A stretch of DNA of 40,097 nt, from assembly GCA_020724775.1 (NCBI GenBank), contig DYGG01000005.1:49902-89998 (forward strand), read 5' to 3'. The DNA is from Ignavibacterium sp. (GTDB taxonomy: Bacteria; Zixibacteria; MSB-5A5; GN15; PGXB01). The notes under the pieces are model-generated. The model was given only the letters and a program-made list of their open reading frames with translations, was not told the DNA's origin and did no database searches. Positions 9,100 through 16,617 of this stretch are shown here, one piece after another. The translations under genes and the position numbers were made by a program. Position 1 is the first letter of the stretch; every line of letters begins with the position of its first letter.

Positions 9100-9867
9100 T
9101 CAGAGGTTAAGTTTTGCCATCATCTGGCGGGCGTTCTTGACAGCCTGTCCGAGGTGGCAATTGTTAAAAAATACGAATGTCTTGTTTACCTGGCCTTCTA
9201 ACTGACGAACCTTATTCTTCCATTCCTCCAGTTCCTGGTCGGAGTAATCGTAATCATACCGAAGCGCCCCTCCCTCCCACCACTGAGAAGCGTTCCGACC
9301 ATGAAGTCGTAAATAGGCAGTATCGGAGGAAATCTTCAGTTCCGGTTTCAATAGACCCGGCAGTTGCGGCTCATCTACTGAGACATATGGTACCCGCGCC
9401 GATTTGAGCGCTTTGAATGTGTCGGGATTATCCCAACTACTATGGCGAAATTCGACAAAAAACGTGTCTGGAGGAAAGTCCTGCGAGCATTCGGCAATAT
9501 ACTTAAGATTTGACAGGCTGTATTTGAAGGAATAAGGAAATTGCGCCAGCACTCCTTTGAGTTTACCGGAATCCCGCATCGGTTTCAAGCACTCCAGAAA
9601 CGGCTGGCGGGCGTCATCCCTTTCACGACGTTTATGAGTGTATTTTTCGGGGGTCTTGACTATGAACTCGAATTCAGCAGGAGTCTTGCGGTCGATATTC
9701 GCCATTACCGCCGGATGGGGAATCCGATAATACGTGGAATTGATTTCCACGGCTGGGAAGAACTTCATATAGTGGTCGAGCATCTTCCCTTTTTCAATTT
9801 GTTCCGGATAGAAATTGCCGCGCCAGTCTTCAAAACTGTACCCTGATGTTCCCACTCTTATTATCAT
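9100..9867 (-). CDS. DUF72 domain-containing protein (YecE family)
   Basis: A 255-residue protein covering a whole DUF72 domain, a TIM-barrel-like family of unknown biochemical function. The N-terminal IRVGTSGYSFEDWRG, the EINSTYYRIP segment (about residues 41-50), the FEFIVKTPEKYTH segment (about 66-78) and the C-terminal VFFNNCHLGQAVKNA are the usual conserved blocks. There is no signal peptide, so it is probably cytoplasmic. It sits downstream of the zinc-ribbon gene on the same strand but has its own promoter-like pair and no Shine-Dalgarno sequence, so it may be translated from a leaderless transcript. Family assignment is firm; function is unknown. Confidence 0.9.
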   Translation of the reverse strand: MIIRVGTSGYSFEDWRGNFYPEQIEKGKMLDHYMKFFPAVEINSTYYRIPHPAVMANIDRKTPAEFEFIVKTPEKYTHKRRERDDARQPFLECLKPMRDSGKLKGVLAQFPYSFKYSLSNLKYIAECSQDFPPDTFFVEFRHSSWDNPDTFKALKSARVPYVSVDEPQLPGLLKPELKISSDTAYLRLHGRNASQWWEGGALRYDYDYSDQELEEWKNKVRQLEGQVNKTFVFFNNCHLGQAVKNARQMMAKLNL

Positions 9868-9922: not shown

Positions 9923-10042
9923 TCACTTTTTTTTGCTTCTCTGGAAGCGGACTCTTGCGCAGCCGCGGCAGACCCATTTCCGCTGCTTATGAAAGGAGTG
10001 CTTCAGTTCTTTCATCGGACGGCGACAGCGGGGACAAATCAT
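9923..10042 (-). CDS. Small zinc-ribbon protein (39 aa)
   Basis: A 39-residue open frame easily missed by length filters. It begins MICPRCRRPM and ends with a basic tail QRSKKK. Two CxxC pairs, CPRC (residues 3-6) and CRGC (26-29), are spaced as in a single zinc ribbon. Lysine and arginine make up about a third of the chain, which suggests nucleic-acid or ribosome contact; that role is an inference. The ATG overlaps the stop of the upstream membrane-protein gene as ATGA, so translation is probably coupled. It is the last gene of the five-gene operon 9923-12955. The frame, the cysteine pattern and the overlap together make it a likely real gene. Confidence 0.72.
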   Translation of the reverse strand: MICPRCRRPMKELKHSFHKQRKWVCRGCARVRFQRSKKK

Positions 10043-10653
10043 TTAAGATAATGGAGAAAATCGGTTAAGAGGAAATCGACTCTTCCTATTAGAGTTGACA
10101 TACGTGACATTACGGTATAACCAAAGGTCGCCCCGAAGAAAATCATCATGAAGTATGTCCCAATCTTCGCAAAACTACCCAGAAAACCTTTGTGCTCGCG
10201 GCTGAAGTAGAAGTACGCCAGTGTTGACAATAACCCGACCAGGACAACTAGCCCGGAGAAATTAAACTGCCCACCGGCTGTTACTAAGGGCTGAATGGAA
10301 TTAGAAACCTGGCGAAGGGTGCGTTCATAGAGCATCGCTGGAATAGCGGAGCCGGCGCCGGCGCCTATCATCAGGGCAAGAGGAATCCGGGATAGCCACC
10401 CCAATCGTCGGCTGAACCGGCTGAACATCATAAGACCAAGAAGTAAAGGTACTATCAAGAGCAACTGTCCGTGACTGAAAAGTGGATACACCAATTTATC
10501 CAGAATGGCGGTTTGCCAGAATGTGACCAAGGCATAACCGATTGACAGACCAATGAGCAGCGACTCGGCGAATTTGTAAACCGGATTGTCCCGGTAGAGG
10601 AAGGAATAAATTGCCAGAGTAAGAAGTCCGGCGGCAACAGCGCCCCAGTCCAT
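10039..10653 (-). CDS. Uncharacterised polytopic membrane protein (about 6 TM)
   Basis: 204 residues with about six hydrophobic segments (roughly residues 3-20, 31-50, 60-78, 88-106, 130-150 and 160-180). I recognise no catalytic motif. The start codon follows the stop of the upstream gene directly (TAGATG), and the stop overlaps the next gene as ATGA. This is the fourth gene of a tight operon of membrane or exported proteins (9923-12955). Together with the 205-residue membrane protein at 11460-12077 it could form the membrane part of a complex. No homologue is recognisable by eye, so function is not assigned. Confidence 0.8.
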   Translation of the reverse strand: MDWGAVAAGLLTLAIYSFLYRDNPVYKFAESLLIGLSIGYALVTFWQTAILDKLVYPLFSHGQLLLIVPLLLGLMMFSRFSRRLGWLSRIPLALMIGAGAGSAIPAMLYERTLRQVSNSIQPLVTAGGQFNFSGLVVLVGLLSTLAYFYFSREHKGFLGSFAKIGTYFMMIFFGATFGYTVMSRMSTLIGRVDFLLTDFLHYLK

Positions 10654-11460
10654 CTACTTCCCCCCTTTCCGTCGTTTGAAATAGGCGATATTTCCGGCAA
10701 TCACCAGCAGAACAATAAAGATATGCGCCGCAGTCTGCGAGAGCAGAGCCCGATTCGCCTTGCCCGGCAAGCCAAGGATTCCCTCGTATTCGGCGGCGCC
10801 GACAATCCCCCCTACCGCGGAGTAGAGTTGGCCTGAACTCAGGTATGGGTCATAAGTTGTAATCATGGCGGCGGTAAAACCTCCAAGAATCGTCAGACCA
10901 TGTTTCTTGCCGGTATATTCGATCCATTGCACCGTCCGGTCGCCGTCCGCCAGAGATATGACTGCCGCAATCTGCCGATAGTTTTCGACACCGCTCATCA
11001 GCGGAATCTCTGCCAGATAATTGCCGAGATAATCCTGAGGAAACACCTGTCTGATAGACTCGCCCATGCCCAGTATGGCAGAGATATGTTGCGGCTTGAA
11101 ACCAAGAAAGACATAATCTTCACCGTATTTCTTGCCATACTCAGCCGCAAGTTTATTCAATGTCTGGTATCCGATAGCGGTTCCCTCGGCAAATAGAGAC
11201 ATCCCAATTACCCGTTGATTCCTGCTGAAAAGATGGCGGAGAATTATATAACTGATCGGCTGGATTTCGGGGAGTGAGGATGCCTCGTGGTCAAAGGAAA
11301 CAATGACCATAGAAGATGGCGGAAGACTTTCAATTAAGTCATATGACTTTTGCACAGAAGGTGAGGTCGGGATTCTCCATTTAAGAGTGATTATATATGA
11401 AACAACAATCACTGCAAAGAGCGACGCAAATATGGTCCAGCGGATTTTCTGATTATTCAT
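10654..11460 (-). CDS. Uncharacterised protein with N- and C-terminal TM helices and a central extracytoplasmic domain
   Basis: About 268 residues from the ATG at 11460, which overlaps the upstream stop as TGATG with GAGAGG 6 bases before it; a GTG at 11463 is an alternative start. One helix spans about residues 9-27 and another about 240-258, followed by a basic tail FKRRKGGK. By the positive-inside rule both ends face the cytoplasm and the domain of about 210 residues between them lies outside. That domain looks like an alpha/beta fold and includes the segment GGIVGAAEYEGILG just before the last helix. I recognise no enzyme motif. It is the third gene of the operon 9923-12955. Confidence 0.8.
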   Translation of the reverse strand: MNNQKIRWTIFASLFAVIVVSYIITLKWRIPTSPSVQKSYDLIESLPPSSMVIVSFDHEASSLPEIQPISYIILRHLFSRNQRVIGMSLFAEGTAIGYQTLNKLAAEYGKKYGEDYVFLGFKPQHISAILGMGESIRQVFPQDYLGNYLAEIPLMSGVENYRQIAAVISLADGDRTVQWIEYTGKKHGLTILGGFTAAMITTYDPYLSSGQLYSAVGGIVGAAEYEGILGLPGKANRALLSQTAAHIFIVLLVIAGNIAYFKRRKGGK

Positions 11461-12077
11461 CACTGACCTCTCAAGTAGGTCCTTTCCAGGCCGAGGATGA
11501 CACGGAGCGCGGTGGTCATCGAGCCTAGACCGATGCCGATTAATATTGCTCTCCGGGCGGCCATAGAAGGATAGTCCTGAATCCAGTAGGTCAGTTCGGG
11601 TATTGTATCGGAGAGGTATGCCATAATCGGCATTCTACCGAGGAGGACAATCAGTGCGGCGACGAGCAGAATTGTGGCTTGCAGGTTTCTGGCGCGAAAA
11701 CCGCGAAAGGAAGCCGATGCCACAAAAAACGCCAGAAGAGAAAACACGGTTGCCTGCATCGGGGCTTGCAGGTTGTCGAATGTCCAGAGAAAGGGGGAGC
11801 CGATTTTGGTGCCCCCGATGATAGCCAAAAGCGGCATACTAATCAGAGCCAAAAGGCTGACAGTCTTAAAGGGACGCTCCTTTCCGCGCCGAATCGCTCT
11901 CATACTGTTGTTCATGAAAGCAGCAACTCCGACAAAGAGCGTAAAGGCAAAGATAATCTGCCACCAGTCATTGACCTGATTAAACATGGCACGGGCAACT
12001 GGATGCGCCGAAAAGTACTGCAGAAACATTATCAATCCGGCGACAAGGCAAACTATAAGAGGAATGCGGGAAGACAT
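11460..12077 (-). CDS. Uncharacterised polytopic membrane protein (about 6 TM)
   Basis: About 205 residues. The start is placed at the ATG at 12077 because it overlaps the upstream stop as TGATG; a GTG at 12089 is possible. Hydrophobic segments lie at roughly 5-25, 38-56, 74-92, 102-120, 128-146 and 175-195, giving about six helices. The short basic loop MRAIRRGKERP between helices 2 and 3 should face the cytoplasm. No family motif is recognised. Together with the polytopic protein at 10039-10653 and the two single-domain partners it probably forms a membrane complex, an inference from gene order and coupled junctions. Confidence 0.8.
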   Translation of the reverse strand: MSSRIPLIVCLVAGLIMFLQYFSAHPVARAMFNQVNDWWQIIFAFTLFVGVAAFMNNSMRAIRRGKERPFKTVSLLALISMPLLAIIGGTKIGSPFLWTFDNLQAPMQATVFSLLAFFVASASFRGFRARNLQATILLVAALIVLLGRMPIMAYLSDTIPELTYWIQDYPSMAARRAILIGIGLGSMTTALRVILGLERTYLRGQ

Positions 12078-12955
12078 CAAAATTTCCACCAGTCAGAGGA
12101 AGGATTCAGGGTTGACCAGATAACGGCAACCAGCACGAAAACGGCAATAAGCAACTTGAGGATATCCTGAGCCTTTACGGTGGAGAGAATAACCCTGTCA
12201 TTGGTGAGATACCCGGAAGCGGCAAATAGTTCCTCCCCTATCAGCGTGTAATCACAGGCAACAATGAAAAAAGCCAGTTGTATAGTAGAATCGGTTCCGG
12301 CGATCTGAATGGCGCCGATGGCATTGCCGGTTTCCGCCATAATCAGCGATTCCGCTTCAAATGTACCAAGAAGAAAGACCGATGCAGGTCGGGTGCGGCT
12401 AATGATGCCGTCAACCGCAGCAGCGTAACCGAACTGTGACGATGAGATATAGAAAATGTCATCGGGATTGTACCGGTCAGGATAACCGGCTTTGATATAA
12501 CCTTCTTTTACCACTTCCTGGGCGACAGCCATAATCACGGGGTCATGGGTGGGATATATCAGACGGCAATCATAGGAGGCGGTTTTCTCGGCAACATTGG
12601 AGAGGATATTCATGGAGGCTATGGTGGTCGGTCGCTGTATGTCGCCACCATATCCGGGCGTGAAGACGATAGCCGTCCCCATCTCGGTGGCGCGGCCCAC
12701 GGCTTCCTCAACCGCTTTAAGCCCCGGAATTTCCCGGATAAACAAATGCTTCTTCCTGCCGATTACCCAGACGGCATATAGCACTGCCGCTATGGAAACC
12801 AGAGAAGCAATCAGAGCCGGAAGGGTTCTTCTGTCGAACCAGGCTGTTTCCGTCTGAGGACTATCAGCGGCAATTATCGGCGATGCTATCAGAAAGGAAC
12901 TAAGCGGCAGAATGACAGCAAACAAAACTATCAATCTGAGCGACGACGTTCTCAT
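12077..12955 (-). CDS. Uncharacterised membrane-bound protein, possibly DUF6754 family
   Basis: About 292 residues from the ATG at 12955. A longer reading to 13054 would overlap the divergent gene and is rejected. N-terminal hydrophobic segments lie at about 4-27 (signal-like) and 43-62, and a C-terminal helix at about 265-282. Between them is an alpha/beta domain with the segments FTPGYGGDIQRPTT and FLLGTFEAES. The basic GRKKH after the second helix suggests that this domain faces the cytoplasm. From memory it resembles DUF6754, but I cannot check this. It is the first gene of the five-gene operon and has a promoter-like pair directly at its start. Function unknown. Confidence 0.78.
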   Translation of the reverse strand: MRTSSLRLIVLFAVILPLSSFLIASPIIAADSPQTETAWFDRRTLPALIASLVSIAAVLYAVWVIGRKKHLFIREIPGLKAVEEAVGRATEMGTAIVFTPGYGGDIQRPTTIASMNILSNVAEKTASYDCRLIYPTHDPVIMAVAQEVVKEGYIKAGYPDRYNPDDIFYISSSQFGYAAAVDGIISRTRPASVFLLGTFEAESLIMAETGNAIGAIQIAGTDSTIQLAFFIVACDYTLIGEELFAASGYLTNDRVILSTVKAQDILKLLIAVFVLVAVIWSTLNPSSDWWKF

Positions 12956-12962
12956 AGTTGAT

Positions 12963-12991
12963 ATTAAATTTTCTCCGGCAGGCAAAATCAA
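12963..12991 (-). promoter_or_regulatory. Candidate promoter for the five-gene membrane operon
   Basis: On the minus strand: TTGATT (12986-12991), a 17-base spacer and TTTAAT (12963-12968). The -10 lies 7 bases from the ATG at 12955, so transcription would begin at or next to the start codon. No Shine-Dalgarno sequence is present. A leaderless transcript is likely if this is the promoter used. Confidence 0.45.
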
Positions 12992-13004
12992 CAAAAAGTT
13001 TAAC

Positions 13005-13033
13005 TTGACATTGAGGTCAGCGCCTTTTATTTG
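13005..13033 (+). promoter_or_regulatory. Candidate promoter for the sugar ABC transporter operon
   Basis: A perfect TTGACA (13005-13010), a 17-base spacer and TATTTG (13028-13033). The ATG at 13044 is only 10 bases after the -10, so the mRNA would carry almost no leader, and no clear Shine-Dalgarno sequence is seen. It is arranged back-to-back with the promoter of the minus-strand operon. Confidence 0.45.
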
Positions 13034-13043
13034 ATAGGCTATT

Positions 13044-14273
13044 ATGAAAAGCATATCTATTTCTTTCGCAATATTGGCGCTGTTGCTTCTGCTTCAATGC
13101 GGAGGCGGCAAGACCGACGGAGTCGTCATTGAATGGTGGCAATTCTGGACCGACCCGGCAATAAAACCAACTATTGAAAAAATGATTGCTGATTACGAAG
13201 CGGCGAATCCGGGCGTTAAAATCAATATTACCGACTTAACCTGGGCGAATGGACATGAAAAAATCGTTATCGCTTTTTCATCGGGTACGGCGCCCGATAT
13301 AGTAGAATTGGGATCGGATTGGATTTGGGAGTTCGCTTCAACCGGTCAGATTGCACCGATAACCGATGAAGTAGTGAAGGACACGTCCCTCTTCCATGGC
13401 TGGACGCCGGCGACTCTGGACAGTCAGATTTACGCTTTCCCCTGGATTCTGGGTACGAGGGTGCTTTTTGTCAACAATGCGCTCTCAACCAGAGCCGGAC
13501 TGAAAGACAAATATGTCCCCGCCAACTGGGAACAGATGAAACTCCTCTGTTACAAGATTGATTCGCTGGGTGAGGATATCTATGGTTTTGGCGCAAACGC
13601 CGCCGAAAAACATACTTTGTATAAGAAATTTCTCCCGTTCTACTGGTCTACCGGGGGGAGAATAATCAGCGAAGATGGCAAATATGCCGTAATTTCCAGT
13701 GATAGGTGTTATCAGGCTTTGAAATTTTATAAGGAACTGTCCGACAGTTGTGGCATGATTGACACTCAGAGACGACTGGAAGATGCTTTTCTTGCCGGAA
13801 AAGTCGGCGTTATCATATCCGGCGACTGGCTCCTCAAGAGAATTAAAAGGGGAAATATAAATATTGATTTTGTCACTTCACTGATACCCGGACCGGAATA
13901 TCCCGGGAAATCGTTTGTGGGCGGGGAATATCTGGCGGTAAGCAGTAAATCACCGCATCAAAGAGAGGCTATACGCTTTATCAAATATCTCACTTCAAAA
14001 GAGAATCAGATACTTTTCTGCAAGACAAACTACTCCGCAAATCCGTCGCATAAAGAAGCGGCTCTTGACCCGTTTTTCAAGGATGATCCCAACCTCATGA
14101 CCTTCGTTTCGCAACTGCGTCTATCCGAATTTCCTCCGCCGGACCCGCAGTGGGTTTATATCGAGGATATTATCGAGACCATGCTGGAGGAAATTCTGTT
14201 TAAGAATGCGCCCATGGTGGAGACACTGTATGAAGCGCGCAATAAAATCCAGAAATTAATTGACAGCAAATGA
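13044..14273 (+). CDS. Extracellular sugar-binding lipoprotein of an ABC importer (family 1 SBP)
   Basis: 409 residues. A lipoprotein signal ends in the lipobox LLLQC (Cys19). The mature part begins with the typical ITFWxxW-like opening (VVIEWWQFWTD, about 30-40) followed by FSSGTAPDIVELGSDW (about 81-96), the usual layout of MalE-like type-I sugar-binding proteins. The C-terminal helices (SPHQREAIRFIKYLTSKENQ, about 300-320) fit as well. Its stop overlaps the first permease gene (ATGA), so the three genes form one unit. The family binds oligosaccharides or polyols and delivers them to the inner-membrane permeases. Which sugar cannot be told from sequence. Confidence 0.92.
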   Translation: MKSISISFAILALLLLLQCGGGKTDGVVIEWWQFWTDPAIKPTIEKMIADYEAANPGVKINITDLTWANGHEKIVIAFSSGTAPDIVELGSDWIWEFASTGQIAPITDEVVKDTSLFHGWTPATLDSQIYAFPWILGTRVLFVNNALSTRAGLKDKYVPANWEQMKLLCYKIDSLGEDIYGFGANAAEKHTLYKKFLPFYWSTGGRIISEDGKYAVISSDRCYQALKFYKELSDSCGMIDTQRRLEDAFLAGKVGVIISGDWLLKRIKRGNINIDFVTSLIPGPEYPGKSFVGGEYLAVSSKSPHQREAIRFIKYLTSKENQILFCKTNYSANPSHKEAALDPFFKDDPNLMTFVSQLRLSEFPPPDPQWVYIEDIIETMLEEILFKNAPMVETLYEARNKIQKLIDSK

Positions 14274-15130
14274 AGAGGCAGATCCTCGCCGGTAATTTCC
14301 TTGCCTCGCCCTGGATTGTGACCTTCCTGGCTTTCTGGCTTTTTCCTTTGTTCTATTCGTTCTTCCTCGGATTTACCGATTTCCGCTTAATGCGCCCCGA
14401 TTATAACTGGGTCGGATGGGAGAATTACATAAACCTGTTCCGGGACAAAGCCTTTATCGAGGCGCTGATAAACACTTTCATTTTTGTCATCGGCACGATT
14501 CCGTTTACGACCGTCATCGCGCTGATTCTGGCGCTTCTGGTAGAAAAAAAGATTCCCGGTCAGGCGCTCTTTCGCTCCGGATATTTTGTACCGTCGATTA
14601 CTTCAATGGTTGTCATCGCGCTTGTCTTCACCAATCTCTATTCACGCGACGGTTATCTCTTCCTGCTGGCTAAGATGCTGGGGATGCATCCTCCCGAAAA
14701 CGGCTTTCTTCTTTCCAGCAAAACGGCGCTGCTATCCATCATGGCGATGGATATTTGGATGTCGGTAGGTTATTACATGTTGATATTTCTAGCCGGGCTG
14801 AAGGCGATACCGGAAGAGTTGTATGAAGCGGCATCGGTTGCCGGAGCCAGCGGCCGTCAGAAGTTCCTGCATATTACTCTACCGCTACTGAATCCGGTCA
14901 CTGTCTTTGTCATAGTTATAAACAGTATAAAATCATTTCAGGTTTTTACTGAGATTTATGTCATGACCAAAGGGAAATATGGCACATCCAGCGCCGTCTA
15001 CTTCATATATGAATCCGGATTAAACCGTTTTGAATTCGGTTATGCTTCCGCCGCCGCTTATCTGCTTTTCGTCATTATTGCCATATTCTCTATCCTGCAA
15101 TTGGGGCTGATGCAAAGGAAACACTATTGA
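14270..15130 (+). CDS. Sugar ABC transporter permease (MalF-type)
   Basis: 286 residues with six predicted membrane helices. The cytoplasmic EAA loop, which contacts the ATPase, is EAASVAGASGRQKFLHITLP (about residues 184-203). The N-terminal PWIVTFLAFWLFPLFYSF is typical of CUT1-family UgpA/MalF-type permeases. It overlaps the binding-protein gene by 4 bases upstream and the second permease by 4 bases downstream (TTGA). It forms the heterodimeric channel with the product of 15127-15930. No ATPase gene accompanies the set. Confidence 0.93.
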   Translation: MKRQILAGNFLASPWIVTFLAFWLFPLFYSFFLGFTDFRLMRPDYNWVGWENYINLFRDKAFIEALINTFIFVIGTIPFTTVIALILALLVEKKIPGQALFRSGYFVPSITSMVVIALVFTNLYSRDGYLFLLAKMLGMHPPENGFLLSSKTALLSIMAMDIWMSVGYYMLIFLAGLKAIPEELYEAASVAGASGRQKFLHITLPLLNPVTVFVIVINSIKSFQVFTEIYVMTKGKYGTSSAVYFIYESGLNRFEFGYASAAAYLLFVIIAIFSILQLGLMQRKHY

Positions 15131-15930
15131 AAGCGGTTCGACTCATTGCTCTTTCTCTCGTGCTGGCGCTGATGATATTTCCGCTTCTCTGGATGTTTCG
15201 CGTTTCTCTGATGCCGCCCGGCGCGGGCTTATCCCTGGAAGAACTGATTTCCCCGGCGTTGTCGCTTCTTCCCTATCAGGATATCCTGACTTCGGGCAAG
15301 ATGGCTCTATTTTTTTTCAATTCCCTTCTGGTTGGGGTTGTTGTCACCGTCGCTAACATTCTTTTTTGTTTTCTCTCAGGATACGCTTTTGCGCGACATC
15401 CGTTCCCGGGACGCCGTTTCTGGTTCTACTCGGTTCTATTTGTCTTAATGATACCATCACATATTGTCATTGTGCCGCTCTATATAATGCTTCACAAATT
15501 GGGAATGTACGATACCTACTGGGCGCTGATTCTCCCCTTCGCTGTAAATCCTATCGGAATCTTTTTGGTGCGGCAGTACCTGGAGACCTTGCCGACATCA
15601 ATGGAAGAAGCGGCACGAATAGATGGAGCATCGGAATTGCAGATAATTTTCAAAGTTGTTATGCCCCTCTGTAAGCCGGCTTTGGCCGTGCTGGCGATTC
15701 AGGTCTTTTTGACCAACTGGAATTCCTTCTTATTTCCCCTCATATTTACCAGTTCCGAATCGGTGCGGACCCTTCCGGTAGCGTTGGCTCTATATCAGGG
15801 ACATCAGGCGATCGATTGGTCTCATCTGATGGCCGGTTCCTCGCTGGCGGTTATTCCTGTACTGGCAGTGTTTTTAGTTTTCCAAAGGCAGATAGTTTCC
15901 GGCATTACTGCCGGCGCCGTGCGTCAATAA
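15127..15930 (+). CDS. Carbohydrate ABC transporter permease (MalG-type)
   Basis: 267 residues, starting with a TTG that overlaps the preceding stop as TTGA. Six membrane helices are predicted. The EAA motif EEAARIDGASELQIIFKVVMP (about residues 161-181) and the upstream PSHIVIVPLYIMLHKLGMYDTY segment mark it as a UgpE/MalG-type CUT1 permease. It should pair with the preceding permease in the inner membrane. The operon seems to end here, and a strong promoter-like element follows. The ATP-hydrolysing subunit must be encoded elsewhere, perhaps a shared MsmK-like ATPase; that is an inference from its absence here. Confidence 0.93.
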   Translation: MKAVRLIALSLVLALMIFPLLWMFRVSLMPPGAGLSLEELISPALSLLPYQDILTSGKMALFFFNSLLVGVVVTVANILFCFLSGYAFARHPFPGRRFWFYSVLFVLMIPSHIVIVPLYIMLHKLGMYDTYWALILPFAVNPIGIFLVRQYLETLPTSMEEAARIDGASELQIIFKVVMPLCKPALAVLAIQVFLTNWNSFLFPLIFTSSESVRTLPVALALYQGHQAIDWSHLMAGSSLAVIPVLAVFLVFQRQIVSGITAGAVRQ

Positions 15931-16023: not shown

Positions 16024-16617
16024 ATGATTGGAAAAATTTTAGTATCGTTTCTGCTCTCAGCGTTACTTCTGCTGGCAGGATGCGCCAGCAAAGGGTATGT
16101 GGATAAGAAAATGGCTGAGATGCAGGCCCAGGTCAGCACGGACGTGAGCAGTATTAAGTCTCAGACCGACAGCAACAGTGATGAAATAAAGAAGATGCAG
16201 GCGCTGACCACAGAGTTATCCGGTAAAGCCGATATGGCATTGAACAAGGCTAAAGGTTTCGAGGATTATCAGGTAATCTGGGAAGGAATCGTAAACTTTG
16301 ATTATGACAGCCATGAATTGACCCAGATAGCCCAAGACAATCTGGATGCGCTGGGACAGAAGATGGCGGATAATCCCCGCTCCATTCTTGAAATCGCCGG
16401 TCACACTGACCGCACCGGCTCCGCCAAGTACAACTTTCAACTCGGGCTTCGACGCTCTGAGTCGGTCAAAACATTTCTGGCTGACAAGTATGGAGTAGCC
16501 CTCTACCGGATGTTTATAGTCAGTTTTGGAGAGAATAAGCCGGTTGCCATGCCTGATGAAGCGAACTCCAATGCTAAGAACCGCCGCGTTGTGCTTAAAC
16601 TCTGGGGACCGATTTAA
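16024..16617 (+). CDS. OmpA/Pal-like peptidoglycan-associated lipoprotein
   Basis: 197 residues. The lipoprotein signal ends in the lipobox LLAGC (Cys20). Residues about 25-75 are rich in heptad-like hydrophobic and charged positions and may form a coiled coil, as in Lpp-like spacers. The C-terminal OmpA domain (about 85-195) has VNFDYDSHEL, then the diaminopimelate-binding Asp129 in GHTDRTG and Arg144 in LGLRRS, and NAKNRRV. The protein should be anchored in the outer membrane and bind peptidoglycan. The start is fixed by AGGAGG a few bases before the ATG. It has its own promoter-like pair and terminator and is probably a single-gene transcript. Confidence 0.95.
   Translation: MIGKILVSFLLSALLLLAGCASKGYVDKKMAEMQAQVSTDVSSIKSQTDSNSDEIKKMQALTTELSGKADMALNKAKGFEDYQVIWEGIVNFDYDSHELTQIAQDNLDALGQKMADNPRSILEIAGHTDRTGSAKYNFQLGLRRSESVKTFLADKYGVALYRMFIVSFGENKPVAMPDEANSNAKNRRVVLKLWGPI

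Follow-up and report, generated by a model that had tools for sequence, protein, structure and literature searches.

Four genes, here termed A, B, C, and D, are kept in the order A-B-C-D in more than a dozen phyla of mostly uncultured diderm bacteria. On the basis of this gene linkage, as no interaction data are available, we infer that A–D are in all likelihood subunits of one conserved and hitherto undescribed inner-membrane complex. The copy that led to this finding lies in a 40,097-nucleotide stretch of a Zixibacteria genome (contig DYGG01000005.1), which is called the window. Its relevant features are as follows.

12077–12955, minus strand: gene A, 292 aa; signal peptide or N-terminal anchor, TM helix, cytoplasmic Rossmann-like DUF6754 domain, and C-terminal TM helix
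11460–12077, minus strand: gene B, 205 aa; six-TM protein with its N-terminus probably inside, without known family
10654–11460, minus strand: gene C, 268 aa; TM helix, Rossmann-like domain that is probably periplasmic, and C-terminal TM helix, without known family
10039–10653, minus strand: gene D, 204 aa; six-TM (perhaps seven-TM) protein with its N-terminus probably outside, without known family
9923–10042, minus strand: gene E, 39 aa; CxxC...CxxC zinc ribbon, found only in Zixibacteria
12956–13043, no strand: divergent intergenic region of 88 bp common to gene A and the sugar-importer operon, defined by the ORF ends
13044–14273, plus strand: sugar-type solute-binding protein (SBP_bac_1, E 4.1e-37)
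14270–15130 and 15127–15930, plus strand: two ABC permeases (BPD_transp_1, E 1.2e-13 and 8e-19)
16024–16617, plus strand: OmpA-domain lipoprotein beyond the importer (OmpA, E 5.7e-18), also present in 8 other loci

The initial annotation, made from sequence alone, had described five minus-strand genes joined by the junctions TGATG (A/B), TGATG (B/C), TAGATG (C/D), and ATGA (D/E); all of these positions and junctions were confirmed, with gene B starting at the ATG at 12077 that overlaps the stop of gene A as TGATG. The fixed stoichiometry considered likely there cannot be inferred from overlapping genes, and the five-gene operon had to be corrected to a core of four genes (A–D) with E as a Zixibacterial add-on. 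A DUF72 protein is encoded after the operon (9100–9867), and such a gene is conserved downstream of this module in several Zixibacteria.

Conservation of the module and its paralogues

HMMs for A–D were run over all ORFs of 83 loci. Among 96 A genes with room downstream, 91 were followed by B, C, and D in this order on one strand, and A–D never occurred on opposite strands in these testable cases. Of the remaining five A genes, three stood alone, one belonged to a tandem A-A-B-C-D, and one to A-B-D-C. This conservation of gene order across phyla rules out a chance neighborhood. It also means that one outcome named beforehand as refuting the operon, namely loss of the gene order in other genomes, was not met. 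The A-B-D-C order was observed at a sole locus (L099, 762–3034). When GTDB species genomes were scanned with the A family, 568 relatives were confirmed; the named loci are the 80 best of these, not a random sample, and include Zixibacteria, Poribacteria, WOR-3, Gemmatimonadetes, Fermentibacteria, Latescibacterota, Cloacimonadota, Eisenbacteria, Neomarinimicrobiota, BRC1, Edwardsbacteria, Stahlbacteria, CSSED10-310, and Mcinerneyibacteriota. DUF6754 was detected in all 97 Zixibacteria genomes tested (78/78 of good quality; 67 genera), mostly in 4–6 copies, and in none of 14 control genomes. The C family was present in 39 of 40 relatives, and gene A in 11 of the 13 genomes of a Gemmatimonadota sample. 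A long N-terminal extension of A, amounting to hundreds of residues without a Pfam domain, was observed in Cloacimonadota and Mcinerneyibacteriota (L080, L102, L111, L116).

Gene E is a real gene and a Zixibacteria-specific addition. Its homologues directly follow D in 11 other Zixibacterial loci (L041, L042, L045–L048, L050–L052, L057, and L065), and none was found elsewhere in the locus set. The original reading of this gene as a 39-residue zinc ribbon held; it contains two CxxC motifs and scored below the Pfam cut-off.

The window genome contains five modules including the window copy, of which three are arranged in tandem on contig C28 with FN3-bearing A proteins (L007) and one is the A-A-B-C-D module on contig C72 (L008). 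In a tree of C, a supported Zixibacterial clade contained the window copy, and the three copies of the tandem fell into separate clades, some of them mixing phyla, so that both transfer and early duplication remain possible. A homologue of glutamate mutase E is encoded at G000:C72:4649-5911, on the same contig as A-A-B-C-D, which places the window genome among the few such relatives.

Protein families, folds, and predicted topology

Gene A, which had been said only to recall DUF6754 faintly, is a clear full-length member of this family (PF20539, E 7.5e-100, 333.8 bits against a cut-off of 27, covering profile positions 2–249 of 257), and the profile was matched by all 90 aligned homologues of gene A. 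B, C, and D could not be assigned to any Pfam family; searches with 79–92 homologues of each gave scattered weak matches only, and none of the 92 members of the C family belonged to a Pfam family. The other refuting outcome named in the initial annotation, in which each gene would belong to a separate known family of unrelated function, was thus not met. Sequence searches of the PDB returned only FN3 for gene A and noise for gene C. Polar residues are strongly conserved in the domain of A (GRATE, ETG, AGT, and DYT.GEEL), and strongly conserved residues of C are E65, P68, D143, Q211, and E226. Neither a catalytic nor an ion-conducting motif was identified in the complex, and no flavin or Fe-S motif was found. 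Rnf-Nqr was absent from all 18 families listed for 85 D homologues and, for the B homologues, from the top 25 of 63 weakly matching families. No mention of DUF6754, of GlmL in Zixibacteria, or of the operon was found in the literature searched.

The AlphaFold (AF2) models of A and C were confident (mean pLDDT of 89.7 and 94.5, respectively), and both consist of an N-terminal helix, an alpha/beta domain, and a C-terminal helix with an identical order of helices and strands. Each domain contains six alpha-beta repeats and a final helix, which runs directly into the C-terminal membrane helix. Foldseek returned only distant Rossmann-like proteins for the two models (best E about 0.003, TM about 0.3), with nothing at E 1e-3 or better and no close PDB match. 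Two more specific assignments were tried and rejected. A phosphosugar isomerase (SIS) fold for A had no SIS match in Pfam, an hhalign E of 0.4 against SIS_2 relatives, and only weak Foldseek matches (E about 0.02–0.06, TM under 0.5). The beta/dIII domain of NAD(P) transhydrogenase (PNTB) matched C in 1 of 92 members at E 0.056, and hhalign gave E 0.1–0.2 with a PNTB profile of three sequences only.

Charge averaged over 79–92 homologues predicts that the domain of A is cytoplasmic (net +3.6 after TM2) and that of C is outside, and that B (N-in) and D (N-out) are inserted in opposite orientations. Hydropathy averaged in the same manner gave six helices for B and six, perhaps seven, for D. The two anchored alpha/beta proteins of the initial annotation, one facing inside and the other outside, therefore held, while its two six-helix proteins held for B and with this reservation for D. 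The opposed topologies together with the shared helix and strand order of A and C suggest an inverted duplication, which is not shown, as profile comparisons (hhalign) of A with C and of B with D were not significant.

Genomic neighbors of the module

Clustering of the neighboring genes revealed two proteins located just upstream of the module in several phyla, namely a GlmL/MutL-family ASKHA protein in about 16 loci and a protein termed X1 in about 15; some 16–20 loci carry the two. The usual arrangement is S1-GlmL-X1-A-B-C-D, sometimes with an extra membrane protein (PH) in front. The GlmL encoded at the module is recognized by PF13941 with E about 1e-124 to 1e-128 and carries a C-terminal extension of roughly 150 aa, and X1 (375 aa) exhibits weak biotin/lipoyl- or RnfC_N-like similarity. 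In three Zixibacterial loci (L121, L123, L124), GlmL, an exported protein, and X1 are followed by tolQ-tolR-tonB/tolA-tolB, and in Zixibacterial family f4 (L122, L123) the GlmL-X1 cluster is divergent from a triple module. The GlmL genes of WOR-3 and Poribacteria are located away from the modules. A second class of GlmL-family ORF, often about 850–980 aa and scoring less well (E about 1e-91 to 1e-105), was observed beside the usual one of 600–640 aa (G061:C35, G064:C6, G057:C32, G008:C26).

GlmL was detected in 38 of 40 relatives (29/29 of the good ones) and, in other phyla, in each of the 29 genomes tested that carry the module; its prevalence without the module was checked in 14 control genomes only. 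When the genomes searched for GlmL were also searched for the glutamate mutase GlmE, it exceeded the cut-off in 0 of these 29 genomes and in 4 of the 40 relatives. With GlmE absent from 29/29 and 36/40 genomes, GlmL cannot generally serve glutamate mutase there. The idea that GlmL marks glutamate fermentation was ruled out by the same absence.

Other neighbors vary among phyla (gcvP, aroK/aroB, lplA), so part of the genomic context is surely incidental. In Fermentibacteria the module is followed by a TonB-dependent receptor and ExbB/ExbD, and LptE lies upstream of the tandem modules of the window genome (L007). As a second recurrent neighbor, gcvPB (glycine decarboxylase subunit 2) was observed immediately preceding S1-GlmL in genomes of Fermentibacteria and of the WOR-3 type (L063, L125, L127, L130, and others). 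The module of Poribacteria (L060, L061, L066, L067, L074, L075, L084) comes after putative aroK and aroB genes for shikimate kinase and dehydroquinate synthase.

The module is divergent from a sugar-type solute-binding protein in 13 Zixibacterial loci besides the window, usually with two permeases and often with an OmpA lipoprotein beyond them. Such recurrence points to a promoter region used in common and to a connection with sugar uptake. The paralogous modules elsewhere lack a sugar importer and lie near GlmL, Tol/Exb, or TonB genes, so the back-to-back placement with a sugar ABC importer noted at the outset held for the window copy and not for its paralogues.

Proposed complex and alternative readings

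The initial proposal of an undescribed multi-subunit membrane complex is supported, with its choice between signaling and transport left undecided. For the function, which is inferred and not shown, we favor a complex of A–D that acts in envelope transport or biogenesis with the assistance of an ATPase (GlmL with X1), although we hold it tentatively and would not yet wager on it. B and D would form a membrane core in opposite orientations, on which A and C would present Rossmann-like domains toward the cytoplasm and the periplasm, respectively, with FN3 domains added outside in many A paralogues. The orphan GlmL-type ASKHA ATPase and its partner X1 may act at the cytoplasmic face, where ATP would drive or reset the complex, which may thereby move or assemble something across the envelope. 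Paralogous modules would have different clients, and the window copy with its zinc ribbon may serve or regulate uptake with the adjacent importer. In favor of this reading are the conserved A-B-C-D order and the wide occurrence of the module, the Tol, TonB/ExbBD, LptE, and sugar importer plus OmpA neighbors, the opposed topologies, GlmL/X1 directly upstream in several phyla, and the occurrence of GlmL mostly without GlmE in the relatives and in module-bearing genomes of other phyla. It is weakened by the lack of interaction data and of a catalytic or ion-conducting motif, by neighbors that vary among phyla, by the GlmL genes located away from the modules in WOR-3 and Poribacteria, and by a comparison with genomes lacking the module that covers only 14 controls.

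A trans-membrane sensor is a possible alternative, in which the periplasmic domain of C, with the FN3 domains of A, would sense a ligand or the condition of the envelope, and A would relay the signal through its cytoplasmic domain, reporting sugar uptake in the present case. Rossmann-like domains on both membrane faces and the importer kept in the 13 other loci are in its favor, and nucleic acid or protein is a conceivable ligand of the zinc ribbon E. However, two large multi-TM subunits exceed the needs of a sensor, no output domain (kinase, GGDEF, or DNA-binding) is nearby, and other modules have no importer.

We regard two further readings as unlikely. Rnf/Nqr complexes contain paired multi-TM subunits of opposite orientation together with subunits bearing cytoplasmic and periplasmic domains, and a new type of redox or ion-translocating machine of this kind, having paired inverted multi-TM subunits and cofactor domains on both faces, would agree with the opposed arrangement of B and D and of A and C, the Rossmann-like folds, and the weak similarity of X1. 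It is opposed by the lack of a listed Rnf-Nqr match for B and D and of flavin or Fe-S motifs, by profile comparison, which shows no relation to PNTB, and by the insignificant A-C and B-D similarities. The A–D proteins might instead be a membrane-bound enzyme with, for example, a lipid or sugar substrate, and GlmL, X1, Tol, and the sugar importer would then be incidental neighbors. The conserved polar residues of A and C and the Foldseek candidates, mostly Rossmann-like enzymes, speak for this, but those matches all fall short of E 1e-3, and neither multiple tandem paralogues nor the cross-phylum GlmL linkage is expected for a lone enzyme.

The ATPase-assisted envelope complex can also be read more boldly. 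A-B and C-D may conceivably stem from an ancient duplication, with the two copies inserted into the membrane in opposite senses. The resulting complex would be pseudo-symmetric, would expose a Rossmann-like domain at either face of the inner membrane, and would draw its power from the orphan GlmL-type ATPase. If true, this would be a new class of ATP-driven envelope machine, occurring throughout Zixibacteria and also in many other uncultured phyla. Across a large uncultured section of the bacterial tree, the module is apparently a core membrane system kept in multiple copies, and family databases lack three of its four subunits, namely B, C, and D. GlmL proteins without glutamate mutase also gain a testable partner, which could allow probably misleading annotations to be corrected.

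Among known systems, Rnf/Nqr resembles A–D by analogy only, without sequence match or cofactor motifs. ABC sugar importers, Tol-Pal, and ExbBD-TonB are recurrent genomic neighbors, and A–D are homologous to none of their subunits. PF20539 (DUF6754) includes gene A, is a family without function, and does not cover the conserved partners B-C-D, which are absent from Pfam. The module-linked ATPase is a clear member of GlmL/MutL (PF13941), the ASKHA-type accessory protein of cobalamin-dependent glutamate mutase; it differs from that accessory in that GlmE is absent from all 29 genomes of other phyla and from 36 of the 40 relatives, and hence it must have another role there.
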